DNA of 64,000 bases from Elusimicrobiota bacterium (GCA_016180425.1 JACPBF010000014.1:1-64000); one strand, 5' to 3'; numbered from the stretch's first letter, positions 1,579 to 26,438 are shown. Program-made: numbers and translations. The notes: a model not told the origin generated them from the sequence alone.

Positions 1579-1675
1579 TTTTCTTTCTTCCTCCCTATTA
1601 ATTTTTATAATGTCGTTCTACTTATGAAAATGTTGTGTCAAAATTCGAGTTTCTTAGTATTCATTTTTTTGCACC

Positions 1676-4600
1676 TTAAGGGCTTTGCTCTGCTGTAATA
1701 ATAATCTGGATTTGTTGTTGAGTTGTGATAGTAGTTGAAAGCGGCATGCCTAATCTAATCCAGAAATTTCTATCTGCATTCACAGGCACAGCAGTTCCAG
1801 TTTGGTCCCCTGCAAAAGCTCCTCCAGAATTTCCTGAAGCTGTATTTGAAACTGTGAGAGTGCTGGAAACTGATTCAAAATCTACATCATTGGGACGAGC
1901 CGCATTAAATAAACCATTGACCACTACCACATTATTCCCTCGAGCATTGCCTAATGACCAAGGGCTATTGGCTGTGCTGGTTGTTGCTTTAATTTGATAT
2001 CTTTGAGTTACGGTTCCTGAGTTTGTTACTTTCATAGCGGTTGCTGATATACTGCTTTGAGGAATATTAAACGTGCCAAAACCATAACTATTATTGTCAA
2101 AAGTGATAGAAAGAATGGTTCCTTGGGCTGTTGCGGTGGCTGCATTGGAAATAGCAGACCAGTTGGTTTGATCATCAGCAGTAAAGGCTCTAACATAGTA
2201 AGTGACATCTTGGACCAGATCGTTCAACGTCCTATTTCTAGTAGTGTAAGGCGATACTCCTGATGTTGATATATCCAGCCGATTTAAAGTTTGTGTAGCA
2301 CTAGCAGTCGCGCTCAACCCATTCATGTCAGAACTAATAGAGGAATAAAATAAACGGAAGGTTGAAGAATTTAGATCTCCTGTTAAGTCATCATCCCCAG
2401 GAGAAATCCAGGAGAGTGTGATGGTTCCGCTTGAATTTCCTATAAGAGCTGATAGGCTTGTAATAGCAGCTGGAGCTGTGTCATCAGCTGCAGCAGTAGT
2501 GGTAGAAGCAGTGACAGTAATAGATTGAGTGCTAGCTCCAGCAGTGCTATCTCTAGCGCCAGCCTGCACAGCATAATTAGTGTTTCCGGTAAGTCCAGTA
2601 ATAATAAGAGTGGTGTTAGCTGCTGCCACTACACCAACAGAGGATTTAGAGACACTGAAATTTCCAGCATTGCCTGTAGAGACCATTAAAGCTGTATTAA
2701 TAGGGTTTCCATTTTGTCCTAAAATTACAGAAATGGAGGTAGTAAAAACTTGAAAGCCTACTACTGTTGGCACTGCTGCTAACGTGCTTGTAGAAGCAGT
2801 GATAGTAATAGTTTGGGTGGAAGCATTGGCGTAAGTGCCTCTGGTTCCTGCCTGAAAGCTATAGACTGTAGCGGTGGACAAATTGCTGATGAGCAGAGTA
2901 GTTGGGCCATCAGAGAAAAAACCAATGGAGGAATTGGACACATTAAAATTCCCATCTGTTCCTGTGGAAATCATCAAGGGCGTGCTGCTTGCATTTCCAT
3001 TTAAGGTTAAGATTATTGAAATGGATGTTGTGAAAATTTGGAAACTTGAAAGAGCAGGGGCAGCAGAAAGGGTATAAGTAGAGTTGATGATAGTAGTAGT
3101 TTGAGTGCTAGCTCCAGCAGTGTTATCTCTAGCGCCAGCCTGGACAGCATAATTAGTGTTTGCTATAAGCCCGGTAATAACAAGAGTGGTGTTATTTCCA
3201 CTCACTACACCAACCGATGAAGTTGCCATTCCAAAATTGCCATCAGTTCCTGTGGAAATCATCAAAGGTGTATTAATAGGATTTCCATTTTGTCCCAAAG
3301 TCACAGATATTGAGGTGGCAAAAATTTGGAATCCTACCAGAGTAGGTATTGCAGCTAAGGTACGGCTGGTGATCTCAATACCTGCTATGCTTTGAGTGGA
3401 AGCGTTTTGTGTAGAATCAAAAGCGCCAATATGTAGGTCATAACCGGTATTGGGAGTTAGGTTGCTTATCGTCAATGTGGTAATTCCAATAGCAGCTCCT
3501 ATACTTGAACTTGCCACGCCAAAATTATTGGTTGAGATAGATAGCATGGTTCCATTTGGGTTTGTATTTGGATTGATGCGCACAGCAATGGAGGTGGCAA
3601 AGACTTGGAAACTATTTAACGAAGGCGCAACAGCTAGAGTGCTGGTAGAGGCAGTAATGGTAATAGTTTGAGTAGAAGCGTTTGCGCTGCTGTCAACAGT
3701 TCCAGCCTGGAATCCATATACAGTAGCTGTGGATAGATTAGAGATGACTAAAGTTGTGTTAGTATCTCCAGCTTCACTTAAACCCACAGAAGAGTTAGAG
3801 ACATTGAAGTGGCCTGATGTGCCAGTAGAGATCATAATGCGAGTATTTGCAGGGTTTCCGTTTCTTCCCAAAGTAACGGTTATAGATGTAGTAAATACTT
3901 GGTATCCAACAAGAGTAGGGGTAGCAGCTAAAGTTGTAGTAGAGATTGCAGTACCAGCTACGCTTTGCGTAGAAGCGTTTGCTCTAGAGTCAAATGCTCC
4001 AATGTCCAATGTAAAACTGTAAGCTGTATTTGGTATCAATCCTGATAAAGACAATGGCGTGGGATTCCCTCCAACTACCCCAATAGAAGAACTTGATACT
4101 GTAAAGGAATTTGTAGATATGGATAGACCTGTCCCGTTGGGGTTGGTATTCGGATTTACGTTAACTGTTATTGAAGTAGCAAATATTTTGTAGCCGCTTA
4201 ATAGGGGAGGAGCAGCAAATGTGTATGTAGAAGCGCTTACAGTAATAGTTTGGGTAGAAGCACTGGCATAAGTGCCTCGGGTGCCTGCTTGAAAACTATA
4301 GACTGTGGCAGTTGACAAATTGCTGATGACAAGCGTGGTGGGCCCGTTAGCAAAAATTCCAATAGAGGAATTCGATACATTAAAATTTCCATCTGTTCCT
4401 GTGGAAATCATTAAGGGTGTGCTGCTTGCATTTCCATTCAATGTCAATTCGACAGAAATGGATGTTGTGAAAATTTGGAAACTACTTAGAGTGGGAGGAG
4501 CTGAAGTTGTATTTGTAGAAGAAGTTACAGTGGTGGCTGTGCTGCGCAAACCATAATAATTTTTTGCGCTGGCCTGAAAAGAATAATTAGTGTTAAGAGA

Positions 4601-5242
4601 TAATCCTGTAATGACAAAGGTGCTGATTGCAGAGCTCACAAAACCTACAGAGGTTCGTAAGACAGAAAAATTCCCATTGTTTCCTGTAGAAACTGCTAGA
4701 GTTAATGGAGTTGAAGTGGCGTTGCCAAGGTTGTTTAAACCCGCATCCAAAATAATAGAGGCGCTATCAGCGTATATATTAAAGCCAACAATTCCTGGTG
4801 AGACTGCCCAAGTATATGTGGAAATTGCTACATAATCCGAATCAGTATCATTTCCATTTTTAACTAGCACTGTATGGGATGTATTAGGCTGAAGATTGAG
4901 ATAGGATGTTGAGTTTGGTCCCATGGAGGGTACGGTGCCTGAAGTAATATTAGGAGTTAGTCCTGTGATAGTGGTTAATCCCACATAATAATAGTTTGTA
5001 TCTGGAACATGAGCATCCCATGAGAGACTTAAACTGGTTGAGCTGACACTAGTGAATTTTACATTGCTCAAAGCATGGGCGAAAAGAAATTGACCCTTAA
5101 AAATAATGTTAAGTAGAACAAACGCAAAAAGAAGCTTTATCTTAATTATTTTTAGGCTGGTAAAGAAATTTAAAATAGAATTAATGTAAATTCTTTTTAA
5201 GGTGGGACCATCGCCAAAAATGTTATTCTTTGAGATAGCCAT
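1676..5242 (-). CDS. Giant secreted protein with tandem fibronectin III-like repeats
   Basis: 1188 residues. A long basic N-terminus and a hydrophobic core at about 36-52 form a probable signal peptide. An FN3-like module follows (about 57-145). Then come eight tandem repeats of about 93-95 residues (roughly 148-930), each opening with a pattern like FQIFTTSISV and containing STGTDGNF and SSIG motifs. A more typical FN3 domain (about 930-1040, ITLSWISPGDDDLTG) and a distinct C-terminal domain (about 1042-1188) complete the protein. The repeats fall into three alternating types (LNGNASST, NPNTNPNG, GQNGNPINT), so they were probably duplicated in blocks. Its C-terminal domain resembles the partial protein at 1-564. 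It looks like a surface adhesin, stalk or coat component; no enzyme motif is seen. A sigma-54 promoter lies 21 bp above the ATG and an AGGAA ribosome site precedes it. Confidence 0.85.
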   Translation of the reverse strand: MAISKNNIFGDGPTLKRIYINSILNFFTSLKIIKIKLLFAFVLLNIIFKGQFLFAHALSNVKFTSVSSTSLSLSWDAHVPDTNYYYVGLTTITGLTPNITSGTVPSMGPNSTSYLNLQPNTSHTVLVKNGNDTDSDYVAISTYTWAVSPGIVGFNIYADSASIILDAGLNNLGNATSTPLTLAVSTGNNGNFSVLRTSVGFVSSAISTFVITGLSLNTNYSFQASAKNYYGLRSTATTVTSSTNTTSAPPTLSSFQIFTTSISVELTLNGNASSTPLMISTGTDGNFNVSNSSIGIFANGPTTLVISNLSTATVYSFQAGTRGTYASASTQTITVSASTYTFAAPPLLSGYKIFATSITVNVNPNTNPNGTGLSISTNSFTVSSSSIGVVGGNPTPLSLSGLIPNTAYSFTLDIGAFDSRANASTQSVAGTAISTTTLAATPTLVGYQVFTTSITVTLGRNGNPANTRIMISTGTSGHFNVSNSSVGLSEAGDTNTTLVISNLSTATVYGFQAGTVDSSANASTQTITITASTSTLAVAPSLNSFQVFATSIAVRINPNTNPNGTMLSISTNNFGVASSSIGAAIGITTLTISNLTPNTGYDLHIGAFDSTQNASTQSIAGIEITSRTLAAIPTLVGFQIFATSISVTLGQNGNPINTPLMISTGTDGNFGMATSSVGVVSGNNTTLVITGLIANTNYAVQAGARDNTAGASTQTTTIINSTYTLSAAPALSSFQIFTTSISIILTLNGNASSTPLMISTGTDGNFNVSNSSIGFFSDGPTTLLISNLSTATVYSFQAGTRGTYANASTQTITITASTSTLAAVPTVVGFQVFTTSISVILGQNGNPINTALMVSTGNAGNFSVSKSSVGVVAAANTTLIITGLTGNTNYAVQAGARDSTAGASTQSITVTASTTTAAADDTAPAAITSLSALIGNSSGTITLSWISPGDDDLTGDLNSSTFRLFYSSISSDMNGLSATASATQTLNRLDISTSGVSPYTTRNRTLNDLVQDVTYYVRAFTADDQTNWSAISNAATATAQGTILSITFDNNSYGFGTFNIPQSSISATAMKVTNSGTVTQRYQIKATTSTANSPWSLGNARGNNVVVVNGLFNAARPNDVDFESVSSTLTVSNTASGNSGGAFAGDQTGTAVPVNADRNFWIRLGMPLSTTITTQQQIQIIITAEQSP

Positions 5243-12997: not shown

Positions 12998-13741
12998 TTA
13001 GTCTCTGGCTACTGTCAGAGCAAAAACATTTTTAGCCCCTTTTTCCATTAAAATTTTCGCGCAAGCATTGAGCGTGGCTCCTGTAGTAGTTACATCATCT
13101 ATAAGCAGGATATTTTTGGAAAGAATTGGAATGGAATCTTGGACTTGAAAGGCATTCTCCATGTTTTTAAATCTTTCCTGGCGGGAAAGAAGGGTTTGAG
13201 AGGGGGTAAGTTGTGCGCGAATTAAAACATGATCTTCAATCAAAGCAAGCTCTTTTTTTTCATTTTTTAAGAGAGTCAAAAAATTTTGCGCCAGAAGTTT
13301 TGCTTGATTATAGCCTCTGGTTTTAAGGGTTTTTGTGTGTAAAGGAACAGGAAGAATCGCTTCAATTTGATTGAAAATAGGAAAATTTTTGTAGGACTGA
13401 ACCAACATCTGGGCAAAATCATGGGCAAGTCTCTCTTTTCCTCTATATTTAAAGTCATGGATTAAATTTTTAACAGGGTGAGTGAAGTGAGTTGAGGAAC
13501 GATTTAGCTGAAAACATGGTTTTTTTTCTAAACAGTTAAAGCAAACATCTTTTTTTTCTGAAAGTTGAAAATGACAGAGTCCACAATAGGGTTCTTGGAT
13601 TTTTTTAAAAGTGTTTATACAGTTTTGACAGAGCGCGTTATCTTCATCAAACATTAGTTTGGTCTTGCACAAGAGGCACTGCTTTGGGTAAAAACAATTT
13701 AAAAGCGCTTTGATATAGGGTTTTAATTTTAAAGAGAGCAT
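12998..13741 (-). CDS. comF: ComF family phosphoribosyltransferase-like protein
   Basis: 247 residues. The N-terminal zinc region has four CxxC pairs (C22/C25, C38/C41, C53/C56, C67/C70). The C-terminal type I phosphoribosyltransferase fold has the PRPP loop ILLIDDVTTTGATL. ComF proteins are linked to DNA uptake and single-strand DNA handling in naturally competent bacteria; the exact reaction is not settled. It is transcribed after the SprA-like gene (135 bp gap) and before gap, with palindromic element A in between. Confidence 0.9.
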   Translation of the reverse strand: MLSLKLKPYIKALLNCFYPKQCLLCKTKLMFDEDNALCQNCINTFKKIQEPYCGLCHFQLSEKKDVCFNCLEKKPCFQLNRSSTHFTHPVKNLIHDFKYRGKERLAHDFAQMLVQSYKNFPIFNQIEAILPVPLHTKTLKTRGYNQAKLLAQNFLTLLKNEKKELALIEDHVLIRAQLTPSQTLLSRQERFKNMENAFQVQDSIPILSKNILLIDDVTTTGATLNACAKILMEKGAKNVFALTVARD

Positions 13742-13876: not shown

Positions 13877-16800
13877 TTAAAATTGAATCGTGATTCTAGT
13901 GCTAAAACCAAAAGTTGAAAAATTTTCCTCTTTTTTAGTTTTAAAAAAAGTACGGGCATAATTCCCGCCAAATCCTACCCGGATGTTAGGTGTAATTTCT
14001 AAATCTCCATTTAGATTAGAATCTAAGTTATCTTTGCTTTGGGTTTCATCTACTCCATTGCGGATCATGCCATAGCGGATGGATGAGGTCACAATCAAAC
14101 GGTTGCTTAGAGTTAGTTGTTTTCCCAGAGGTAGTTTAAAAAATCTTGGCACATTGATATCTCCAAAAATCTGGAGGGAGCCATTGCGCGTAATTAAATC
14201 TGTTGTTTTTTTTCCTTTTCCATCCTCAGCTTCGCTTTGGGACTGGTCATATCTGGGTGTAAATCTCCAATTTCCCCATTTTAAAGTTGTAATCACTTGT
14301 CCATTGATTCCTTTAGATTTTGACCGTCCAGTCACTTGGTTAGTAACCAGATTTTTATCTTCAGAAACGCTGTTTGTATATCCTACTGAGAACTGCAAGA
14401 GTTTAAATAGAGTGAATGTTAAATCAGTTCCAAAATTAAAACCAATGGATCTGGTTTGATCCCTCACCTCATTTAGCCGTTCTTGATAGTTAGCATTTAG
14501 ACGCGCATCCCGCATCCAGCGGCGAATGAGAAAAAGAGGTCTTTCAACTTCATACGTGGAAAGAATCATATCCGGCCAAACTCGGCTATAAGTAAAAGAT
14601 TCTGTGCCAGTGGTATCCCTTCTTGTTTTAGATTCAGTAAAAGTTCCAGAAGTATTGATGTTTTTTATTGGAGCCCATAAGCGACTTTTTAAAAAAGTAA
14701 ATCCTTCAAAAGGGGTCCATCTGCCAGAGATACGGCTACTGTCTGTGGCAGTCAAATTAGTTCTGCGGGCATTTGGATTTTGACCGGATAAATCTAAAAG
14801 ACGTCCGCGGATCAGAAGTTTATCTCTGGCAAAAAATCCCGCATTCACATTGTCATAGGTGTCCGCGTCAGAAATGGAATAGCCTCCTGAAAAATTTAAA
14901 CTATTAATCATGGGATTTATTGCCCGAACATAGCGGATATATTCAAAGATGTTCTTTGGAGCAACAGATGCGGAAATATCCGCATTAGAAGTTCTGCTGA
15001 TATTTTTTAGCTCCCCTCTTTTAAAGGTAGTTGTGCCAAATTGAACATTGTTCACATTATAAGTTTCAGCGGTATTGATGGAATAGTTAAAACCCGGGGT
15101 TAACCAGGAGATGATTTGTAAAGAACCAGAAAGGCTTGCAGACTGATTTTGAGTTTTATTGTATTTCCCTAAAGATTCTTTGATTTTATCTGTAAGGGTT
15201 TTATTTGGGTCTAGAGCTTTTCTTTCCTCAAAAGTTTGGCTGTAATTGTAGGTCGGGGTGAGATTAAGTTGCGGGAAAAATTGGAAAGAGGTTCCTAATC
15301 CATAATTTTCTCCAACACTTCTGGTGTCTGTATTTTCTAGGGTAATCCTTTGAAAAGAGTTGGTTTGGCTAAAATTGTAGGATAAATTACTGGGTAATGG
15401 TTTAAAAGTAAGAAAGCGGGTCGGTAAAAGATCAGGCTGCCAAGGAAGCGAATAACTTGTGCCATAACGATAATTAAAGGTTTCATCTTCCCTGTCTCCA
15501 GCGCTGCGGAACCCAAGAGAATGATCCGCTGAAAAACCTACATTAAAGAGGTTATTTTTAATCATGTTTGGAATCCAAGGAAGTTGTGTCATTAGAAAAT
15601 TACCGCTTAAATTTTGATTGGTATTAATTGTTTTTCCTTCATCAATGACTGACACTAAAATATTTGGGTCATTTAGGGAGCTAATTTGGGGCGTGACAGT
15701 TTCCGCATAAGTCATGTTGGAGGACAAAGGCATGAATTTTAACCGGGTAAGATTTAAGTATGCGCTACCGCTTTTGCTGTCCTGTCCAGATCCAGCAGAA
15801 GTAAGGGTTTGAAAGTTGCGGTCCACAAATCTCCAATTTGCGCCCCAGCTTCCCCATCCTTTCCAGGCAAAATCAGTATTAGCCCGATAGGCCACGCCTT
15901 TAATTTTTACAGAGCCGGTAAGATGCATTTCATTGATGTAAATTTTATTTGCGGAAGGGTCTGGCCCGCCTGCGGGTATGATCACGCCCATGGTAATTTC
16001 CGTAATATTTCTTAAAGAAGGGGTTCCCACTCTTCTTTGCCATTTGCCAAAAGATTTTTCCGCGTTGTTGTCTAGTTGGCCGTCACGATTTTTATCCAGG
16101 ATATCTAGTTCAATCAAACGCCAGCCAGTAAATGTGAGAGGTGTTTTATATTCAAGAAAATTGCCTGGGGTTCCTATGCGAAAGAAAAATTCTGATCCAG
16201 AACTGTCTCCATAAAGAAAGAATTTAAGTGTTTCATGTTCGCTAAAATCTAAAGAGCGGGTAAAGGTCTCTTTTGTAGTGACTGTGGAAACAAAAGCGGT
16301 ATTTGCGGTTCTTTGATATTGAATGGCTAAAGCCTGTTCTCGTCTCTTAGGATCATCTTCCTTGATTTCATAAAGATCTCTAAAGTTAGAATTTGATAAG
16401 AGAGAAGGGTATCCGGGATTATCCTCATTATTTTCAGCAAAAGCTGTGGCGCTCACAGGGGCTGTGGAAGGTTCAATGCTGGCCTCTGTGAATCGCGTGC
16501 CTACCATTGCGATTCTTCCTAATTTGAAATTTCCGGATTTAGCCGCATTCACAGGATTTACAACCGCAACTCTTATATTTTTTATAGAAGACCATTCCAG
16601 TTGACCTGTTGTAGGAATATTCAAAGGAAGCTGGAAGATTTTCCAACCTGTAAAATCAAGATTTACAGAAGCTTCATTCAAATAGTTACCGTAAGTGTCA
16701 TCTGAATCTAACCTGCCATTGCCATCTAAATCTTGTGTGTCTAACCTCCCATTTCCATTGCCAATCGTGGTTGTAGAGCCATCTGGATTTAAGAAATCCC

Positions 16801-19429
16801 ACCCCGTATCTTCTCCTGTGCTGAGAGTGCTGTTTTTATCTTTATCTTCTGTTTTTAAAATTCCTGAAGGATCGCTATCTGAAAGTTCTGCGATGCCTCC
16901 TAGTCTAAAAAGAAGTTTAGCGTTACTTCCATCGCCATGCACCCAAAGTTCTAAGAATTGTCTTTTGTTAGTGAAAAAATCCAATCCTGATTTACTTAAG
17001 ACTTGCGCGATCGCCATTGCTTCAGAAGGACCATTGGATTTAAAATTGTAATCCACATTGAGAGCTTGGATTTTATCGGAAGTTTCTACAGGAGCTCCGG
17101 AATTAATATCTCTAATTTTTACATCTTCGTTGGATAGGGTTAAGACATCTGCGCGTCCATTTGAGTAAGCGCCTCCAGAAGGAGTTGTGCTTGGGTTACC
17201 TTTTTGCGGGTTGGCTGCTAAGACCCAAGAATCTTTATTGAGGATAGCGATATCTTCCAGTTTAATCCCTTCAAAAGATTCTAACATGGCTCGATCCGCG
17301 GTGTTCGGGTTTTTTATGCTTTGCGCTATTTCTCCTGAAATTCTCGTAATTTCAATTGGAAAGTTGCCAAATTTGATATTTTTCCAATTCATGTCTGCTT
17401 CTAAGACCGTAATGCTCCTAGAAACAGAGCGCAGATCAGGAATTCCTCTTGGCTGCGGCGCGAAGTTGTAGAGAACCGATCCCCCAAAGAAAAAATTGTC
17501 AGTCATATAAAATTCATTTCTCATGCCAACCACAGTTTCTTCTCCCTGGCCGCCAAATGGAGAAAAATCAAAGGTAATTTCTACCACAGAATCTTCTCGA
17601 ATTTGTTCTGGTCTGAAGAAAGTTACGATTCCAGCATCATAATCTATAAAATAGTCAACGTCTCTGGTCATTTTTTTTCCATCCACAAATACCTGTTCTG
17701 AAAGGGAAACGATATTGGAGCGCTCCAGATTAAAATTTCCTTTGCGAAAACGATATTCCGCAAAGATGCGATAGCGATTTTTAAAATTGGGAACCGCGTC
17801 TCTAAAAACATAGATGTCATCTGTAAAGGGCTTGAAGTTTGGACTATGAAAAGTATCTGAGGAAACAAAACTAAAAATTCCATTTTCAAAATCAACTTCA
17901 ATATCCTCAGGATATTTTGGCACATTTTTTGTTTGAGTGTTGGTGCTAATGTCCAGACCAATAATCTGATCAGGATCTTTTCGATCTAAATCCTGAATTT
18001 TAAGAATAAAGTTTCCTCTGCCATCATCTCTCATAATGCGAGTATCTCCCAAATTATAGTAATTCTTTAATTCACGAGTGGCAAAGAATTGAGTTTCATC
18101 TGGTTTAAGGAGTATGGGTTCAAACCCCAGCAGCTGTTCATCCTCATTGGAATTGTTAATCAGAGGATCTCTTCCCCCAAGTGTCTGGCTAATTGGAGCC
18201 GTGGAAGCAGCCGGACTATAATCCACTACAATAATGTCTTTTAACTGAATTTCCCTTCGGAAACGGATCACCCCTTTAATGTAGTCCACAGTATAGTCAA
18301 CTGTAGGAACTAGCTGTTTGAAAACACCAGTATTAATCCCTTGCGGACCATTAAATGTTGCAGTGCTAAGTGAGATGCCTCCCAGAGCGGTCAGAGAGGA
18401 TTCAAAAACTTTAAAGGTTCTGGTAGATTCATGGATGTTGTTGTTATTGGGGTTCTGGTCATCTATGAAAATTTTTTCTGAACCTACTTTGATCGGGCGA
18501 TGTTCGGTTAAAGGAGTTGGTCCTGTAGAAAAAGCGAGCAGATAGAATTGTCTTCTTTGATAACCAATGTCATTTAATTCTTTTCTTTGCAGGATAGATT
18601 GGCCAGTAAACCTTTTTGTTTGCGAGATTCCTTTGGTTCGAGATCCAATAAGATAGGTGCGAATTTGTTTAGGCATCACACTCCTATGCCAGAGTTGTGA
18701 GGGAAACAATTGAGCAAATCGAGAGCGGGGTCTAAACATGAGTTCTGCTCTGGCTCCAAACACGGATTTAGAATAACCTACAAAATCAGTGGAAGGGAGC
18801 GAAATCGTAATGTCTCCGAAAGCAGCTTCTTGCAAGACCTCATCCGGGTCTCCCTTATAAAGCACAGAGATAGTTCTATCCAGGCTGGTATCATCATAAT
18901 CCACATTGACCGTGACTTTGCGCCCCACAGTTCCCTTGACGCGCACCTGTAATTGCTGGTCTAACTGAAAATCCACTTTATTGATGCGCCCTTTTCCAGA
19001 ATCTGTTTTTTCATAAATGGTTGAACTGATCTTAAAGTCAATCACTTTTCTACCTGAGATAGAGAGTCCTGATTCATAAGGCAGCACAACATTAATGCCA
19101 GGTCCTACTGGCGGCGGCGCTTGTGTGGTTTTCTTTTTTGATGGCTCTTCTAATGCTCTTCTAGCTTCTGGGGTAAGAGGCTCTCCAGTTTCTAATCTTT
19201 CACGCATCTGGTTCCATCGTTCTTGGGAGTAGCGGATAAAACGAGCTTTTTCAATCTCTTTTTCCATTGAGGGAGGCTGATCCGGAGTTTCTTTTTGCTC
19301 TTCAAAAACGCTTTTATCTTTTGGCAGAAGTTCTTGAGAATAGAGAAGAGGTGAAGAACAAGGAATGGTAAAATTGCCAATCAGAAGTCCGATTAAAAAG
19401 AAGCGTAAGACCAGTTTTAATTGTGGCAA
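13877..19429 (-). CDS. SprA/Sov-like giant outer-membrane translocon protein
   Basis: 1850 residues. The signal peptide has a hydrophobic segment at about 5-25. A charged linker (about 40-100) and a Pro-rich stretch (APPPVGPG) lead into long beta-rich sequence with features I recognise from the SprA/Sov family (LPYESGLSISGRKVIDF, FELDQ/FQLDQ-type strands, repeated RVKGTVGRKVTV segments). The chain ends in alternating strands and an aromatic last residue (TRITIQF), as expected of an outer-membrane barrel. SprA forms the type IX secretion pore in Bacteroidota, where it is around 2,400 residues; this one is shorter. Acidic calcium-type loops are inserted near residues 855-910 and 1107-1121. The start is TTG. 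A good promoter is at 19479-19507. A PorV-like protein and two sorting-domain proteases lie 2-7 kb away. SprA-like ancestry is likely; secretion function is inferred. Confidence 0.82.
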   Translation of the reverse strand: MPQLKLVLRFFLIGLLIGNFTIPCSSPLLYSQELLPKDKSVFEEQKETPDQPPSMEKEIEKARFIRYSQERWNQMRERLETGEPLTPEARRALEEPSKKKTTQAPPPVGPGINVVLPYESGLSISGRKVIDFKISSTIYEKTDSGKGRINKVDFQLDQQLQVRVKGTVGRKVTVNVDYDDTSLDRTISVLYKGDPDEVLQEAAFGDITISLPSTDFVGYSKSVFGARAELMFRPRSRFAQLFPSQLWHRSVMPKQIRTYLIGSRTKGISQTKRFTGQSILQRKELNDIGYQRRQFYLLAFSTGPTPLTEHRPIKVGSEKIFIDDQNPNNNNIHESTRTFKVFESSLTALGGISLSTATFNGPQGINTGVFKQLVPTVDYTVDYIKGVIRFRREIQLKDIIVVDYSPAASTAPISQTLGGRDPLINNSNEDEQLLGFEPILLKPDETQFFATRELKNYYNLGDTRIMRDDGRGNFILKIQDLDRKDPDQIIGLDISTNTQTKNVPKYPEDIEVDFENGIFSFVSSDTFHSPNFKPFTDDIYVFRDAVPNFKNRYRIFAEYRFRKGNFNLERSNIVSLSEQVFVDGKKMTRDVDYFIDYDAGIVTFFRPEQIREDSVVEITFDFSPFGGQGEETVVGMRNEFYMTDNFFFGGSVLYNFAPQPRGIPDLRSVSRSITVLEADMNWKNIKFGNFPIEITRISGEIAQSIKNPNTADRAMLESFEGIKLEDIAILNKDSWVLAANPQKGNPSTTPSGGAYSNGRADVLTLSNEDVKIRDINSGAPVETSDKIQALNVDYNFKSNGPSEAMAIAQVLSKSGLDFFTNKRQFLELWVHGDGSNAKLLFRLGGIAELSDSDPSGILKTEDKDKNSTLSTGEDTGWDFLNPDGSTTTIGNGNGRLDTQDLDGNGRLDSDDTYGNYLNEASVNLDFTGWKIFQLPLNIPTTGQLEWSSIKNIRVAVVNPVNAAKSGNFKLGRIAMVGTRFTEASIEPSTAPVSATAFAENNEDNPGYPSLLSNSNFRDLYEIKEDDPKRREQALAIQYQRTANTAFVSTVTTKETFTRSLDFSEHETLKFFLYGDSSGSEFFFRIGTPGNFLEYKTPLTFTGWRLIELDILDKNRDGQLDNNAEKSFGKWQRRVGTPSLRNITEITMGVIIPAGGPDPSANKIYINEMHLTGSVKIKGVAYRANTDFAWKGWGSWGANWRFVDRNFQTLTSAGSGQDSKSGSAYLNLTRLKFMPLSSNMTYAETVTPQISSLNDPNILVSVIDEGKTINTNQNLSGNFLMTQLPWIPNMIKNNLFNVGFSADHSLGFRSAGDREDETFNYRYGTSYSLPWQPDLLPTRFLTFKPLPSNLSYNFSQTNSFQRITLENTDTRSVGENYGLGTSFQFFPQLNLTPTYNYSQTFEERKALDPNKTLTDKIKESLGKYNKTQNQSASLSGSLQIISWLTPGFNYSINTAETYNVNNVQFGTTTFKRGELKNISRTSNADISASVAPKNIFEYIRYVRAINPMINSLNFSGGYSISDADTYDNVNAGFFARDKLLIRGRLLDLSGQNPNARRTNLTATDSSRISGRWTPFEGFTFLKSRLWAPIKNINTSGTFTESKTRRDTTGTESFTYSRVWPDMILSTYEVERPLFLIRRWMRDARLNANYQERLNEVRDQTRSIGFNFGTDLTFTLFKLLQFSVGYTNSVSEDKNLVTNQVTGRSKSKGINGQVITTLKWGNWRFTPRYDQSQSEAEDGKGKKTTDLITRNGSLQIFGDINVPRFFKLPLGKQLTLSNRLIVTSSIRYGMIRNGVDETQSKDNLDSNLNGDLEITPNIRVGFGGNYARTFFKTKKEENFSTFGFSTRITIQF

Positions 19430-19478
19430 TTTAAAAAAACTAGAACCTTTAAAAATAAAGACATATTTTTCATTCGGA

Positions 19479-19507
19479 ATTATACTTCATTTCCATAGTC
19501 CTCTCAA
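19479..19507 (-). promoter_or_regulatory. Sigma-70-type promoter of the SprA-like gene
   Basis: On the minus strand: TTGAGA (19507-19502), a 17-bp spacer, then TATAAT (19484-19479). Predicted start is near 19472, giving a leader of about 43 nt before the TTG start at 19429. It is divergent from the lptF promoter in the same 152-bp gap. Confidence 0.75.
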
Positions 19508-19541
19508 GTTTGCTTTGGCTTGACATTAAAGGGCAGAACGC

Positions 19542-19571
19542 TTGTCAAAGGGATAGAACTTCAATTATAAT
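19542..19571 (+). promoter_or_regulatory. Sigma-70-type promoter of lptF, probably leaderless
   Basis: TTGTCA (19542-19547), an 18-bp spacer, then TATAAT (19566-19571). Only 10 nt separate the -10 box from the ATG at 19582, so the transcript should start within a few bases of the start codon. No ribosome site is visible before the ATG. Confidence 0.7.
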
Positions 19572-19581
19572 AGCTTAAAAA

Positions 19582-20670
19582 ATGCGCTCACTTATTTTAC
19601 ACCGATACATGATTCGGCAATTTCTTTCACCATTTTGTATAGCTCTTGTGACCTTTACTTTTATTTTGGTTTTGCATTATCTATTTTTAATGATGGATAT
19701 GTTTCTTAATCGCGGGGTTGACCTTTGGATTATTATGAGGATGTCTAGTTTAGTTCTTACTATGCTCTTGCCGCTTTCTATCCCCATGGCAACTTTATTG
19801 GCAGCGCTTTTAACGTATGGCCGGCTTTCAGAAGATGGAGAGTTGATCGCATTAAGATCTTCAGGCTGCGCTCTTTTTCAATATAGCTCACCCAATTTCA
19901 TTTTAGCCCTTTGTTTTAGTCTGATTTTGGTATATTTTAATTTGATTTTAGTGCCGCAAGCTACGCGAGGGTTTAAGGAGCTTCACCTTCGTGTGGTTCA
20001 AAAAAATCCTTTGGCTCTTTTTGCTCCAAAGGTCATGAACCATTTTGGGGAGTATAAGGTTTTTGTGGAACAGATGGATCGCAGAAAAAAAAAGTTAAAA
20101 GGGATTAGCATTTATAAGATGAATTTAGAAGGAGGTCCCACAAGAATTTTAGCGCCGGAAGGGATGATTGATTCTCAAGATGGAATCACCTTACAGCTCG
20201 TCAACGGAGCACTTCATCAGCCCAGCCCTGAAAAAGAAAACGAATATTCTATTACCAAATTTAATAAACTTGCCTTGAGGATGCCGACTCAAGAAGAAGA
20301 TAGTTTAAGAGTCTTTAGCCCCAGAGAAATGACCTTGAGAGAACTAAAGAATAAAATGAAGGAAGAGGTTGGAAAAAAATTCAATATCGCTCCTTTGCAA
20401 ACTGAAAAACATTTAAGGATTTCAGTGGCTTTTGCCCCTTTTGTTTTTATTATTTTGGGAACAGCTTTAGGCGTACCTTTAAAAAAAGGAGGCAAATCAG
20501 TTAGTATCGGAATCAGTATTATTATCATTGTTATTTATTATGGTCTCTTGGTTTTATCTACCTCTCTTGCTTCTCAAGGGTTTTTATTTCCAATTTTTTG
20601 GGTCTGGATACCTAATCTTACGGCCTTAGCTCTGGGGCTGCCATTGCTTTTTCGTTTAGCCAAACAATGA
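19582..20670 (+). CDS. lptF: LPS export ABC transporter permease LptF
   Basis: 362 residues of the YjgP/YjgQ family. It has hydrophobic segments at about 15-35, 55-75 and 100-120, a beta-jellyroll periplasmic domain (about 130-265), then three C-terminal membrane segments (about 275-360). With LptG and the LptB ATPase (not in this window) it lifts lipopolysaccharide out of the inner membrane to the periplasmic bridge. The start overlaps no neighbour; the -10 box is 10 nt away. It overlaps lptG by 4 bp, so the two are translationally coupled. LptF and LptG are the only plus-strand genes here. Confidence 0.93.
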   Translation: MRSLILHRYMIRQFLSPFCIALVTFTFILVLHYLFLMMDMFLNRGVDLWIIMRMSSLVLTMLLPLSIPMATLLAALLTYGRLSEDGELIALRSSGCALFQYSSPNFILALCFSLILVYFNLILVPQATRGFKELHLRVVQKNPLALFAPKVMNHFGEYKVFVEQMDRRKKKLKGISIYKMNLEGGPTRILAPEGMIDSQDGITLQLVNGALHQPSPEKENEYSITKFNKLALRMPTQEEDSLRVFSPREMTLRELKNKMKEEVGKKFNIAPLQTEKHLRISVAFAPFVFIILGTALGVPLKKGGKSVSIGISIIIIVIYYGLLVLSTSLASQGFLFPIFWVWIPNLTALALGLPLLFRLAKQ

Positions 20671-21776
20671 ACCTGCTGCATTCTTATCTTGCAAAGGAAT
20701 TTGTAAAACCTTTTTTATTTTCTTCCTTTCTTTTTGCTTTTGTCATTCAACTTGGCCATCTTTTTGACCGTCTAGAGGTTTTTACAAGAAATGAAGTCCC
20801 CATCCATATTATTTTAATTTACCTTTTTTCAATGGTCCCTTTATGGCTGATTCAAGCGCTCCCCATCTGTACTTTAATCGCAGGAGTGATTGCGGTTGGA
20901 AACATGTCTGCGAGCGGTGAAATATTCTGCCTGCGTTCCAGCGGGATTTCTACTAGAACCATTCTTAAACCTCTTTTTTTAATCTCTCTTTTTTTAACAG
21001 CGCTTACATTTATTTTAGGTGATTTTCTCATGCCAAAATCCACTTATCATGCTCGAAGTTTATATAGGACTTATGTGGATAAAGTGGGTGTTCAAAAAAT
21101 GAGTTGGGAAGATGTGATTGTGCTTTTGCCCAATAAAAGAAGGATGTGCGCAAAACATTTGGATCTGGTAAAAAATGAATTGGATATTGTGACTGTGGAG
21201 GAGTTTGGGGAAAATTTAAATTTAAGGCAGACTTTGACTGCCAAAAAAGCGGAGTGGAATCCCATTAAAGGCTGGATTTTTTATGACGGCGTGATCCGTC
21301 TTTTTTCCAAAGAAGGAGATGAGATCGTTGAAGAAGAGTCCTTTATCTCTGCTCAAATTAATTTAAGAGAGCAGCCTAAAGATCTAGTTCCATACCAAAT
21401 CCTGCCTGAGGAACTTTCTACTTCCGCTTTGAAACAATATATTTTTAAAATTTCTAATTTGGGCATTTCTCCTTTAAAAGAGGAGGTTCAATACTATTTA
21501 AAATTTGCTTTTCCTTTTACTCATATTCTTGTTTTAGCTATTGGTTTGCCAATTGCTTTAAGGGCAACTCAAACCGGAGGCGGGCGAGGCAAGAAGAGTT
21601 TTGGAAAAATGAGGTCTCTTGCCTTGTCGCTTTTAGTTGGATTTTTTTATTATACCCTGATTACGATTGGCCAGGCATTGGGGGAGTCTAGGAAGCTGCC
21701 GGCATTTATAAGCGTATGGATCGCGAATATTCTTTTTCTAATTTTAGGGATTTATTTTTTAAGAAAACTGGATTAG
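20667..21776 (+). CDS. lptG: LPS export ABC transporter permease LptG
   Basis: 369 residues, same YjgP/YjgQ layout as LptF: N-terminal membrane helices, a central periplasmic beta-jellyroll (about 130-265) and C-terminal helices ending SVWIANILFLILGIYF. It partners LptF as the heterodimeric membrane part of the LptBFG transporter. Which of the pair is LptF and which LptG rests on gene order, as the two are similar. The gene ends 5 bp before palindromic element B, which separates it from the convergent protease gene. Confidence 0.92.
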   Translation: MNLLHSYLAKEFVKPFLFSSFLFAFVIQLGHLFDRLEVFTRNEVPIHIILIYLFSMVPLWLIQALPICTLIAGVIAVGNMSASGEIFCLRSSGISTRTILKPLFLISLFLTALTFILGDFLMPKSTYHARSLYRTYVDKVGVQKMSWEDVIVLLPNKRRMCAKHLDLVKNELDIVTVEEFGENLNLRQTLTAKKAEWNPIKGWIFYDGVIRLFSKEGDEIVEEESFISAQINLREQPKDLVPYQILPEELSTSALKQYIFKISNLGISPLKEEVQYYLKFAFPFTHILVLAIGLPIALRATQTGGGRGKKSFGKMRSLALSLLVGFFYYTLITIGQALGESRKLPAFISVWIANILFLILGIYFLRKLD

Positions 21777-21781
21777 ATAGT

Positions 21782-21923
21782 ATTCGTTAAGCTCTTGTTA
21801 AGAAATTTCTTTCCTTGGGGACTGAAAAAATTTTTACTCTCTTTTTGTTAAAAATTTTTGGTAGAGTGAGCACAAGCCGAACGTCCCCAAGGAAAGAAAT
21901 TTCTTAACAAGAGCTTAACGAAT
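21782..21923. repeat. Palindromic element B: 41-bp perfect arms around the conserved core
   Basis: Perfect 41-bp inverted arms (21782-21822 and 21883-21923) surround a 60-bp loop; the total is 142 bp. The core is closely related to that of element A at 12866-12937, but the outer arms are unrelated in sequence. The right arm runs into the protease gene and contains its last two sense codons and its stop. As it lies between convergent genes it may also act as a two-way terminator, though no U-tract is present. Confidence 0.9.
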
Positions 21924-23726
21924 CAGAACTAATTTTCCAGTTTTAACAATAGAGTCATCTATTTTAAACCGGTAGAGATACACGCCGGAGGTTACTGTTT
22001 CACCTTCTCCATTTGTGCCGTCCCAATCATATTCATAGACAAATTTATTGGTTTGTGTGGCGGAACCATTTGCTTTAATTGAGCTTTGAGGAATTTCTTT
22101 AATTAAAATCCCAGTAATATCATAAAGAGCCAGCTCTAATTTTTTTGCGGATCGGGTTAAGTTCAATACAATGGTGGTTACTGTTTGGGCAGGAGCCCCG
22201 GATTTTTGCAGATAGTTTGGTCCTCCTGGGTTTGGAAAATTAATTGTTTTTGTCACTTCCACGTCAGTGGTTGCAAAGGCTTTTTTTGCTGTTAGTTGGG
22301 AAGAGCTAAATCCGGTCACTACAATTCCAGACTGCTGCCCGTTAAAAGCATTGGAATGAGGAGTTGCAAATAAGGTATTTCCCTCACTTCCTGGGAATGG
22401 ATCACTCTCTTTGCCAGTGGTCAAAGCAATATTGCCGCCACCTGCTGCCTCCACAATATCTACCCCTAAATTCGGAGAGCCATTGTTAATATTATTTGCT
22501 TCCAAGCGGTTAGAATCAGAAGCAATAGAATCATCAATATGCCAAATTAAATATCCTTCTTTTTGAATTCCAAAAGGGAGGCTATCATCATATGTTTTCT
22601 TTGTTAAGGAGGAAAGAGCTCTGCGTTCAATTAGAAAATATTCTTTAGAGCTATCTACACCGGAAACACCGGAAATGGGTATTTTTACAAAAGCGTTTGC
22701 AGAGGAAAGAGCAAAATCTAGGGGAAAGGTTGTAGGGGATTCAGTTGGAGTAATTGTGTTTGGATTTGAGAAAAAACCTAAGAATTGTTTAGACCAGGCA
22801 TCTAAGTGCGCTGGATTAGAACCTTTGGGAGAACCTATATAAACCCCGCTATCCATTAAACTCCATTGACCCACCACAGCTTTGGCAGAGGTCTGATAAA
22901 GGTCTGGCAGTCCTAATTGATGGCCATATTCATGGCAAATGACTCCCAGAGGCTCAATATTTTGCGCCTCATTTTCCGGCACAACCGTTGCTCCATTAAA
23001 GGAGATTCCATCTGCTGCAAAGGGTACTCGTATGCCTTCAGTCACAGCAGCAGTTACTGGAACTGTAGGAGCAAAAACAGACCAGATATTGTCTGTTTGG
23101 CAGCCGGAATCATTGGCAGTTTCCGCTCCAATGCCAGCATGATAAATCATCACATGGCTAAAGGATTGATTTCCAGCTAGGTCTGTTCTTGCATCAGCAA
23201 AATTAAGATCAGTGTCTGCGGCTGAAAGAGCATCTTTGGCTAGATCGCTGTAATTTGAGCAAATCCCTTGGGCATAGCTTGCAAGGGAACTTGGCAGCCT
23301 ATAGGAGCCTTGGGCTCCAGCGCTGCCGCCTGAAATTCTATTGGTAACTGTAGCGCTCACAGTTAAGATGCCATAAGAGTTTTCTAAATAAAAATTTTTA
23401 AGACTCTCAAAAAATTGTTCTGTTTCAGCTTTTGATTTAGTCATGCTTTTGTCAGAAAAATCCACACGGATAACAGCGATATAAGAGGTGGTGGGACTAA
23501 GAGGCACCGGGAAAAAAGGAGCTGCTTTAATTCTTTGGAAGTTTTTTTTAATTGCAATCGGATTTACCTTGCAAGGTTTTTGAATAGGCTGTTCAAAATT
23601 TGGAGGCGGGGGCACGGCTAGGAGTAAAGAAAGGTTAAAAGGGAAAAGAAAAATAAACCCTGAAAAGAAAAAAGTAGGAATTAAAAAATTTAAAAGAATA
23701 TTTTTTTTTAAAATTTTAATTTTCAT
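21915..23726 (-). CDS. M6-family secreted metalloprotease with C-terminal sorting-type domain
   Basis: 603 residues. A signal peptide (hydrophobic about 10-37) is followed by an immune-inhibitor-A-like M6 catalytic domain. The zinc site is HEYGHQLGLPD (H265, E266, H269), with SLMDSG downstream serving the met-turn role. The C-terminal region (about 495-603) resembles the FlgD-like or type IX sorting domain: NFPNPGG near its start, LYDITG in the middle, then TVTSGVYLYRFK and KTGKLVLIR at the very end. It belongs to the block protease-PorV-protease, 50 bp below the PorV-like gene. Its last codons lie inside palindromic element B. Catalysis is well supported; export by a SprA/PorV route is inference. 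Confidence 0.88.
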   Translation of the reverse strand: MKIKILKKNILLNFLIPTFFFSGFIFLFPFNLSLLLAVPPPPNFEQPIQKPCKVNPIAIKKNFQRIKAAPFFPVPLSPTTSYIAVIRVDFSDKSMTKSKAETEQFFESLKNFYLENSYGILTVSATVTNRISGGSAGAQGSYRLPSSLASYAQGICSNYSDLAKDALSAADTDLNFADARTDLAGNQSFSHVMIYHAGIGAETANDSGCQTDNIWSVFAPTVPVTAAVTEGIRVPFAADGISFNGATVVPENEAQNIEPLGVICHEYGHQLGLPDLYQTSAKAVVGQWSLMDSGVYIGSPKGSNPAHLDAWSKQFLGFFSNPNTITPTESPTTFPLDFALSSANAFVKIPISGVSGVDSSKEYFLIERRALSSLTKKTYDDSLPFGIQKEGYLIWHIDDSIASDSNRLEANNINNGSPNLGVDIVEAAGGGNIALTTGKESDPFPGSEGNTLFATPHSNAFNGQQSGIVVTGFSSSQLTAKKAFATTDVEVTKTINFPNPGGPNYLQKSGAPAQTVTTIVLNLTRSAKKLELALYDITGILIKEIPQSSIKANGSATQTNKFVYEYDWDGTNGEGETVTSGVYLYRFKIDDSIVKTGKLVLIR

Positions 23727-23740
23727 GAGAATAAACCCTA

Positions 23741-23767
23741 GAACCCCCGTGCCTTGGCGCGGGGTTC
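23741..23767. terminator. GC-rich hairpin between PorV-like and protease genes
   Basis: GAACCCC pairs with GGGGTTC around an inner GCC-TT-GGC stem, markedly GC-rich for this region. On the minus strand it follows the PorV-like stop and precedes the protease ATG by 14 bp. It may terminate or attenuate, adjusting the ratio of protease to PorV-like protein. No U-tract follows on the minus strand. Confidence 0.5.
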
Positions 23768-23776
23768 TTTACTATT

Positions 23777-24811
23777 TTAGTCACCTGGTTTCCTAGATTG
23801 AGGAGTCAGAGATTTTATCTCAAACAAATAAGTTAATGAAGCAGAATGACTTTTTCCTAAATTTTCAGAATCAGTTAAGGCATAATCTATGACAAAATTT
23901 CCAATAAGAAAACCAATCCCAAAATTATATTTCCCGCGGTCTTGCCCAATTTTAGTTCCTGCGCGCAAAGCTAAAGTATCGTTCCAAAGATATTCAAAGC
24001 CTATTAAACTTTTTAAATTTTGTTCAGTTTCCTTTACAAGGTCGAAACTTAAAATTGAGCTTCCCCAATTTTTAAACCCAAAATTTTTAAAAGAAACATG
24101 ATAGGAAACTCCCCCACGGATCGTTAGGGGCAGAGATTCGCTGGTATTGATGTAGGTGAGTTTACTGCCGATATTTTGAGCGGCAAAACCTAAAGCGCAT
24201 TGTTTATTAAAGAATTTTACTAATCCGCCAAAATCTATGGCAATGGCATTGGTACTAAATGTCTCAACTAATTTTGCATGGATTATTTTTAAGGAAATTC
24301 CTGTTCCATATTTTTCAAGAATTGTTTCAGAATAATTAAAACTGGCAACCAGATCTTCTTGGGCAGTAACGGTTTTAGATTGGCCAAGGGTATCAATCAA
24401 TTCAACATCTCCAAGATTGTAGTAAAGAATACTAGTAGAATAGGTTCCCCAGATGGTTGGGACGCCTAGGAAGAAGGCGCCAAAATTATCTTCCGCTAAA
24501 CCTTTTTGTCCCATAAAACTCGTTTCACAGCGGTTTAAAAATGCCGGGGCGCTTGGATTATAATGCAGAGCAGAGATTCCGCCAAGGTCTGAACTAATAG
24601 AGCTAAAAGATTCTGCCATGCTTAGAGGTTTTGCATGCGGGCTTTTTAACAAGACTCCTGCGGCAGTTGTTCCAGCAGCTTGCGAGATTTGCGAAAAATT
24701 AAAAACTAATAAACTAATAAAAAAAAGGAGTTTTTTGTCCCAGAACCGAGATTGGATTGTGGAAGATAATGAAAAAAGTCTTTTTGTTGGTTCTGGGGTT
24801 TTATCTAGCAA
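23777..24811 (-). CDS. PorV/PorQ-like outer-membrane protein (UPF0164 family)
   Basis: About 344 residues from the chosen start. A signal peptide (LLFFISLLVFNFSQISQAAG) precedes the PorV/UPF0164 pattern: AGVLLKSPHAKPLSMAESFS, then SSDLGGISALHYNPSAPAF, then repeated amphipathic strands of a long-chain fatty-acid-transporter-like barrel. In Bacteroidota, PorV binds the SprA/Sov pore and passes cargo to the cell surface. The frame is open back to an ATG at 24904, but that would overlap the upstream protease by 104 bp. I prefer a TTG at 24811 preceded by AGAAGG at 6 nt, overlapping the protease stop by 11 bp; ATG 24853 is also possible. It sits between two proteases with sorting-type domains. Confidence 0.8.
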   Translation of the reverse strand: MLDKTPEPTKRLFSLSSTIQSRFWDKKLLFFISLLVFNFSQISQAAGTTAAGVLLKSPHAKPLSMAESFSSISSDLGGISALHYNPSAPAFLNRCETSFMGQKGLAEDNFGAFFLGVPTIWGTYSTSILYYNLGDVELIDTLGQSKTVTAQEDLVASFNYSETILEKYGTGISLKIIHAKLVETFSTNAIAIDFGGLVKFFNKQCALGFAAQNIGSKLTYINTSESLPLTIRGGVSYHVSFKNFGFKNWGSSILSFDLVKETEQNLKSLIGFEYLWNDTLALRAGTKIGQDRGKYNFGIGFLIGNFVIDYALTDSENLGKSHSASLTYLFEIKSLTPQSRKPGD

Positions 24812-26438
24812 TGGCAACCTTCTTTTTAGAGTTAATCCCTCCTCCAGAAACATGAAGGAGATAGATTCCAGAAGATACTGTTGTTCCATCTGAATTTTTT
24901 CCATCCCAGTTCAAATCTTTTTTCTGATCTTGAATGCCATCCACCTTGGTTTCCCAGACAATGTCCCCATTTAAAGAAAATACTTTAATTTCAATTGGCT
25001 CTGATTTTGAAGGTTTAAAACTGATCAAGGCTTTTTCTCCAAGCTCAGGATTTGTATATCCTTTTTCTCCCCCTCTTACAGAAACGCTATTTTGAGCAAC
25101 TGTAGGATTGCTAAAAGGCATCTTGATTTTGAATGAGATGGATGAAAAACCCGGGGTGGTTATATTTGAAACTTGGATTCCAGAATCCGTTGCATTATAG
25201 GCATTGGCTTTGGGAGATTTAAAAACAGTGTCACTTGAGGTGTCGCTCCAAGGGTCTCCACTATCCCCATTATTGGTAGAAGGATCTGAGGAGTCTGCTT
25301 CCACTAAGTCCACTCCTTTATGAGAGGGATCTACATTTACGGTATTATTACTTAATTTGGCAGAGTCTGAGGCTATGGAATCATCTATATGCCAAATCAA
25401 AAGTCCTTGAGCTGGCAGGCCTGTATCATAAGTGGCGCCGCCAGTTCTACGATATTCCAGAAGAAAATATTCATTGCTTCCTCCTGTAGCGCTCACCTCA
25501 ATTGGAAGCCTGACAAAACCAGCGCGGCTGGTTTGGGCTTGGGAAATAGTTTTGGAAGTTTCCTCAGTATAACTTATAGTTTGTGGATTTGAAAACCCTA
25601 AAAATAGTTTAGACCAGGCATCTAAATGAGCTGGTTTAGCGCCTTGAGGAGTTCCTAAATAGGATCCTCCATCCATTAAACTCCATTTTCCAACAGAATT
25701 GCCGCCCGTGCTTGTATTATAGAGGTCTGGCAATCCCAGCTGATGACCGTATTCATGACAGACGACCCCTAAAGGGTCCACGCTTCCAACTTCTTTTTCA
25801 GGAACTACTGTAATTCCTGGAAAAGTTTTTCCACTCGCTTTTGGTCCGTCGCCAATAGATGAAAAATAAACAGACCAGATCAAGCTGTTGGGCAAGGAAG
25901 ATGTTTCTGATCCTTCCCCGGCATGATAAAGCATGACATGATCATAAGAAGAAAAATTAAAACCATTGGCGGTCGCTGTAGCAATGGCATCTAAAACAAG
26001 TTCCTCATATTTACTGTCTATTCCTTTAGCATAGTAAGAATGATTTTTTAACAATCTAAAAGCGCCTTCACTTCCAGTCCCTCCCCCAGTTACAGTTACA
26101 TCCACAGATAATAGATTAAATGAATTTTCCAGATAGAAATCTCTAAAACTGCTAAATGCGCTTTCTGTCCAGGCTTTTGTTCTAGACATAGATTTATCAG
26201 GGAAATCAACTCGGATAACTGCAAGTTTGTAGGTTGTGGCAGAGATGGGAGGGGCAAGATTTGGAGCAAATCTTTTTTGAAAGTTAATCCTTTCCATTTG
26301 AGCTTTTGTATTGGTATGACAGGTTGGCTGTTTTGACTTTGGCAGCCAGTCAGGCGGTGGAACTGCTAGGGAGAAATGGCTTAAAAAAAGAGATGAGCTT
26401 AAAACAAGATTAAAGAAAACAAAATATTTGATTCTCAA
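24801..26438 (-). CDS. M6-family secreted metalloprotease with C-terminal sorting-type domain
   Basis: 545 residues, paralogous to the protease at 21915-23726. Signal peptide about 1-25; M6 catalytic domain with HEYGHQLGLPD (H228, E229, H232) and SLMDGG downstream. The C-terminal part (about 445-545) has the FlgD-like or sorting-domain pattern: IKVFSLNGDIV, then TTVSSGIYLLHV and KKKVAIAR at the end. It is the first gene of the run protease-PorV-protease, and its 3' end overlaps the chosen PorV-like start. The run begins about 80 bp below ahcY, with a small hairpin between. Confidence 0.88.
   Translation of the reverse strand: MRIKYFVFFNLVLSSSLFLSHFSLAVPPPDWLPKSKQPTCHTNTKAQMERINFQKRFAPNLAPPISATTYKLAVIRVDFPDKSMSRTKAWTESAFSSFRDFYLENSFNLLSVDVTVTGGGTGSEGAFRLLKNHSYYAKGIDSKYEELVLDAIATATANGFNFSSYDHVMLYHAGEGSETSSLPNSLIWSVYFSSIGDGPKASGKTFPGITVVPEKEVGSVDPLGVVCHEYGHQLGLPDLYNTSTGGNSVGKWSLMDGGSYLGTPQGAKPAHLDAWSKLFLGFSNPQTISYTEETSKTISQAQTSRAGFVRLPIEVSATGGSNEYFLLEYRRTGGATYDTGLPAQGLLIWHIDDSIASDSAKLSNNTVNVDPSHKGVDLVEADSSDPSTNNGDSGDPWSDTSSDTVFKSPKANAYNATDSGIQVSNITTPGFSSISFKIKMPFSNPTVAQNSVSVRGGEKGYTNPELGEKALISFKPSKSEPIEIKVFSLNGDIVWETKVDGIQDQKKDLNWDGKNSDGTTVSSGIYLLHVSGGGINSKKKVAIAR

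Follow-up and report, generated by a model that had tools for sequence, protein, structure and literature searches.

The source genome is that of a member of the Elusimicrobiota (2.6 Mb, 98.5% complete), and the window, i.e., the whole stretch of 64,000 nucleotides that was analyzed, is its contig 25. Among the best 80 of 248 relatives, almost every one is labelled Elusimicrobiota; a named one, Elusimicrobia bacterium RIFCSPLOWO2_02_FULL_39_32, encodes a 97% identical SprA-like protein. The four genes that had been predicted (an SprA-like pore, a PorV-like barrel, and two proteases) are all present where they had been placed, and the locus and its neighbors read as follows:

12998-13741, minus strand: ComF-like phosphoribosyltransferase beside sprA (DZR_2 and Pribosyltran matches; synteny)
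13877-19429, minus strand: SprA/Sov-like outer-membrane translocon, 1,850 aa, TTG start (TIGR04189, PDB SprA profile match, AF2 fragment)
19582-20670, plus strand: LptF/LptG family LPS-export permease, divergent from sprA, synteny conserved (PF03739, E 2.1e-74)
20667-21776, plus strand: second LptF/LptG family LPS-export permease gene (PF03739, E 1.8e-69)
21915-23726, minus strand: M6 metalloprotease, 603 aa, with a signal sequence and a C-terminal sorting-like domain (second cargo of the operon)
23777-24811, minus strand: PorV-like carrier, a barrel of about 344 aa whose start is likely the TTG at 24811 (NF033709, AF2 model)
24801-26438, minus strand: M6 metalloprotease, 545 aa, with a signal sequence and a C-terminal sorting-like domain (first cargo of the operon)

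The gene order is thus sprA(-), lptF-lptG(+), M6 protease(-), PorV-like(-), and M6 protease(-). Read along the minus strand, the operon begins with the protease at 24801-26438 and ends with that at 21915-23726, with a single PorV-like carrier gene between them. The carrier open reading frame had been listed as reaching to 24904, which falls inside the upstream protease gene; the gene itself stands, but a likelier start is the TTG at 24811, which is preceded by AGAAGG and overlaps the protease stop at 24801-24803, so that the two genes look translationally coupled. The lptG-lptF-sprA-comF neighborhood recurs across families of the phylum, often with M6 protease or other genes for C-terminal sorting-like domains (CTDs) and porV genes alongside. 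The ComF-like phosphoribosyltransferase, a conserved neighbor of sprA, probably lies outside the export function.

By profile and by modelled fold, the 1,850-aa protein is an SprA homologue, as originally predicted, and no other barrel family matches it better. The NCBIfam model TIGR04189 matches it in four stretches (E 7e-37, 126 bits), which is under the 200-bit equivalog cut-off, as are the SprA-like scores in all 295 phylum genomes. A phylum profile built from 16 homologues (28 to 69% identical to the window protein) retrieved SprA (6h3j/6h3i) from the PDB, the match consisting of three collinear stretches (E 1.9e-40). An AlphaFold model of residues 101 to 1300 (mean pLDDT, 72) placed SprA entries in the top four PDB positions (E 5.8e-47 to 2.1e-34; fifth, 1.6e-4); global TM scores to these structures were low (0.32 to 0.37), as is to be expected of a model covering part of a large barrel. 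The Pfam SprA_N domain (PF14349) was matched neither in the source genome nor in control genomes and is hence uninformative. The family was found in 254 of the 295 sampled genomes. The window protein also has a CBM11-like stretch at residues 1050 to 1112. EF-hand/dockerin-like DxDxNG repeats at residues of about 862 to 912 are conserved across the phylum.

The barrel encoded between the proteases likewise falls closer to PorV than to FadL, as had been predicted. It scores 111 bits against the PorV/PorQ family model NF033709 (cut-off, 90), while FadL (PF03349) gives only an E value of 0.011. The AF2 model has 14 strands (pLDDT, 81), and a fold search against the PDB returned PorV first (8gl6_F and 6h3i_F; TM, 0.68 to 0.70), followed by FadL at about 0.55. 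A profile of the 13 carriers of the source genome matched the PorV chain of 6h3i at an E value of 7.2e-36, with FadL relatives at 0.0055 or worse. FadL/TodX transporters have the 14-strand architecture in common with the carrier, but PorV is the better match by both sequence and fold, and membership of the FadL/TodX family was rejected.

NF033709 yielded these 13 carriers, and PorV-like matches numbered 4 to 53 per genome across 12 sampled genomes. The PorP/SprF model (TIGR03519), applied to the window carrier and ten others of the 13 own carriers, did not match the window carrier and matched one of the ten (L088:5293-6231 on contig C34; E 4e-9, under the cut-off). The latter carrier matches PorP/SprF along its length in addition to PorV, and its partner is a cargo with a PNGD-type (type B-like) CTD. 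Two carriers (L084:4305-6311 and L085:5900-7492) have long C-terminal extensions after the barrel, with TPR-like matches in the L084 protein, and carriers of similar length are frequent elsewhere in the phylum's genomes.

Both proteases match TIGR03296 (E 2.2e-41 for the 603-aa protein and 1.4e-47 for the 545-aa protein), are 41% identical to each other, and have intact HEYGH motifs at residues 265 and 228, respectively. Their predicted C-terminal FlgD-like or type A sorting-like domains were also recovered. That of the 545-aa protease (24804-25103) passes the TIGR04183 cut-off of 23 with 27.9 bits. In the 603-aa protease, the domain forms the last ∼90 aa (21918-22217) and matches TIGR04183 at 16.8 bits, below the cut-off, FlgD_ig at an E value of 3e-6, and the own-genome CTD profile at 2.1e-21, a value to be read with the sequence itself being part of that profile. 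The domain is not confined to the window: TIGR04183 finds 16 CTDs in the genome, several of them over the cut-off, and the custom profile finds 18, tied to PorV genes, so the prediction does not fall on the ground that other secreted proteins lack the domain. The cargoes carry domains of the kind usually seen in secreted proteins (fn3, Kelch, CBM11, BNR, LTD, and M6, including a third M6 protease). Elsewhere in the window, at 598-5242, a secreted-looking 326-aa protein and a 1,188-aa fn3-repeat protein had no CTD-profile match in the own-genome search.

The identity of the CTD is ambiguous by sequence. Against the PDB, the CTD profile matched the PorZ sorting domain best (E 3.9e-9), its further matches including PorU, RgpB, and translocon-bound type A CTDs, and FlgD Ig structures were about as close (E 4.7e-8); an export signal is therefore unproven from the sequence alone. 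A lysine occupies position −6 in 56 of 71 CTDs and the final residue is basic in 62 of 71. A conserved lysine of type A CTDs in Flavobacterium johnsoniae contacts backbone carbonyls of PorV (PMC10994853), and the lysine at −6 may correspond to it. Three CTDs of the source genome carry a P[NH]GD motif (L086:7204, L087:7912, and L088:6231) and accompany carriers that score 68.8, 53.7, and 39.1 bits, all among the four with the lowest scores. The two CTD classes recall the type A/type B split of Bacteroidota, though the numbers are small.

The resemblance to FlgD opens a different reading of all these parts. The CTDs could be ordinary FlgD-type Ig domains and the barrels FadL-like nutrient porins coexpressed with secreted enzymes that leave by another export route, with the SprA homologue otherwise employed, e.g., alongside lptFG in the assembly of LPS or of the outer membrane. 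The synteny of sprA with the LPS-export genes lptF and lptG across the phylum and the architecture that the carrier fold shares with FadL fit this reading, which we nevertheless consider highly improbable and ranked lower. PorV is ahead of FadL by PDB profile (7e-36 versus 0.0055) and by fold (TM, 0.70 versus 0.55), and the domain lies at the extreme C terminus, as the very last domain, with its conserved lysine at −6. Gene pairing and co-loss, described below, also count against it.

The arrangement in the window is repeated throughout the genome. Of the 13 carrier genes, 12 are immediately preceded by a CTD gene in the same orientation; the chance of 12 carriers following one of 18 CTDs is about 1e-32 (binomial P). 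The original description of a compact locus therefore understates the system, the window operon being 1 of 12 carrier-cargo cassettes. In six other phylum genomes, 80 carriers were fetched, of which 78 were evaluable when scored on all open reading frame ends: 54 had a CTD ending just upstream, 3 CTDs were downstream of the carrier, and none was on the opposite strand. Many pairs have a start-stop overlap of 4 bases, and a looser scan added two further pairs (L178 and L250). The pairing holds for CTDs on very different cargoes, which argues against FlgD-type domains beside nutrient porins. About 30% of the sampled carriers in the six genomes had no CTD neighbor. The sole unpaired carrier of the source genome (G000:C18:37078-37959, L082:17066-18064) is likewise without a partner in the sister genome G101; orphan cargoes also exist, and it may be a general carrier. 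The product of the adjacent gene looks SpoIID-like.

Distances in carrier and CTD trees are correlated within genomes (Spearman, 0.52; permutation mean, 0.12), a value reached by none of 2,000 permutations. This co-variation identifies the cassettes as evolutionary units and is by itself no proof of binding, as joint inheritance of each cassette would alone produce it too. As part of the wider export scheme set out below, most cargo is likely to have a dedicated PorV-like carrier of its own, the product of the gene that follows. The window locus is not self-contained; many cassettes dispersed around the genome are presumably served by its sprA gene.

The three components also disappear together. 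In a genus of reduced genomes (g55), carriers and CTDs are retained in all six genomes that have sprA, while none of the 11 genomes lacking intact sprA, one of them with a decaying copy, has carriers or CTDs at an E value of <1e-5 (Fisher P, 8e-5). Weak remnants above that threshold occur in G017, G074, and G076. In the 1.1-Mb genome G017, CTDs are absent, a single weak PorV-like match is left, and sprA is a decaying remnant with several in-frame stops (G017:C1:953509-954112). The stronger phylum SprA profile, applied to the co-loss cases, located sprA fragments in G165 and G048. Joint loss of SprA, carriers, and CTDs again argues against FlgD-type domains beside nutrient porins, but in a genus of reduced genomes much envelope machinery may be lost. 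Outside g55 there are exceptions: G008, G094, and G108 keep carriers without detectable sprA or CTDs, and the fragmented assembly G118 retains carriers and CTDs with sprA undetected. The co-loss test excluded three fragmented assemblies (G224, G278, and G291) in which many PorV-like genes but no SprA were found; these assemblies are probably incomplete.

The original prediction had noted that no PorL, PorM, or PorU was visible, and HMM searches gave the same picture. GldM (TIGR03517) was found in 0 of 20 phylum genomes, and GldL (TIGR03513) was absent from the source genome even at an E value of 0.1; outside it, two weak matches (E 0.002 and 0.03) fell below the cut-off and were rejected as GldL. 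The PorU profile NF033707 has matches in 19 of 20 genomes, but those listed cover only the C-terminal part of the profile (from about position 836), which is its sorting domain, and never the catalytic region, and identity as PorU sortase was rejected. The component search covered GldL, GldM, and PorU; as it had no T9SS-positive control genome, absence here means absence at HMM sensitivity. Neither the motor (PorL/GldL and PorM/GldM) nor the PorU sortase of type IX systems was detected at that sensitivity, and the suggested “minimal” type IX-like system is supported to this extent, for GldL, GldM, and PorU.

These results could instead reflect a complete type IX system, i.e., an ordinary T9SS with many PorV paralogues, whose motor, ring, and sortase have diverged past HMM detection. 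SprA itself scores under its family cut-off in all 295 genomes, and smaller, faster-evolving parts could escape detection in a search that took in GldL, GldM, and PorU and had no positive control. We regard this as unlikely, given the GldM and GldL results and the truncated PorU-profile matches. In addition, none of the 13 own carriers has the CxC tail motif carried by SprF (PMC12635249), and a one-carrier-per-cargo layout is unlike the single PorV of type A secretion.

As in type A secretion by F. johnsoniae and Porphyromonas gingivalis, there are an SprA-family pore, a PorV-family barrel, Sec signal sequences, and a C-terminal β-sandwich sorting-like domain with a lysine near its end. Unlike type A secretion, the host is not a member of the Bacteroidota, there are many PorV-like genes rather than one PorV, and GldL, GldM, and the PorU catalytic domain are undetected. 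In F. johnsoniae, PorV is common to all type A CTDs, and type B CTDs use a cognate SprF encoded next door. The succession of a cargo gene and a carrier gene of its own resembles type B (SprF/PorP), as does the occurrence of some orphans among both cargoes and carriers (PMC12618676), but the Elusimicrobiota carriers belong to the PorV/PorQ family and, in the scan of 11 own carriers, not to PorP/SprF. By this comparison, the Elusimicrobiota layout is best described as type B logic run with PorV-family carriers.

We think it probable that the locus belongs to an SprA-based outer-membrane exporter with one dedicated PorV-like carrier per cargo and without the known Bacteroidota motor or sortase. 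On the best reading, it functions in the manner of a type IX system, from which it departs in two of the defining features that were searched for, the motor and PorU. Support for the exporter comes from homology, gene pairing, co-variation, co-loss, and the failure to detect GldL, GldM, and the PorU catalytic domain. Judging by their signal sequences, cargo proteins would cross the inner membrane by Sec. In the periplasm, following the mechanism in PMC10994853 and PMC12618676, the C-terminal β-sandwich may be recognized inside the SprA-like pore by loops of the PorV-like barrel, which, by analogy, would be docked at a side opening of the pore, and the pore-bound cargo would then leave sideways together with its carrier and reach the cell surface. 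Without PorU, which was not detected, release or anchoring would have to differ: cargo probably stays bound to the carrier, which would anchor it at the surface, or is set free without processing; permanent anchoring would be the simplest arrangement. F. johnsoniae needs its motor to release the carrier with its cargo (PMC10994853), so another energy source is required for a motorless system to work. Export would thus be energized by something other than GldLM; no such source was found here.

The T9SS has been described as exclusive to the Bacteroidota or the FCB group (PMC12618676, PMC4793230, PMC11285876), its genes being absent outside FCB phyla according to a 2024 paper (PMC11285876), and no description of a T9SS in Elusimicrobiota was found in the full text of open-licence papers. 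Given the broad NCBIfam PorV/PorQ annotation, parts of the exporter may already carry database labels. If true, a near-universal SprA-PorV-CTD system in Elusimicrobiota would shift the origin of the translocon core and make pore and carrier separable from motor and sortase. What energizes carrier-cargo release would become testable, the many cognate carrier-CTD pairs would form a natural set for reading recognition rules, and gene order alone would predict the secretome of a mostly uncultured phylum. More tentatively, and with greater doubt than hope, we suggest that pore, carrier, and CTD could constitute a self-sufficient export core that works, or first worked, without rotary motor and sortase. 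Elusimicrobiota would operate it on a different energy source, with a dedicated carrier-anchor per cargo; addition of the motor and reduction of type A traffic to one shared PorV would have come later, in Bacteroidota.

Near the export locus, the window also contains a long glycan cluster (29165-59432) with genes for sugar nucleotidyltransferases, phosphomannomutase, many glycosyltransferases, a Wzy-type ligase, and GDP-mannose dehydratases, within which lies a gene for an LptD-like protein (57309-59432; E 9.4e-17).
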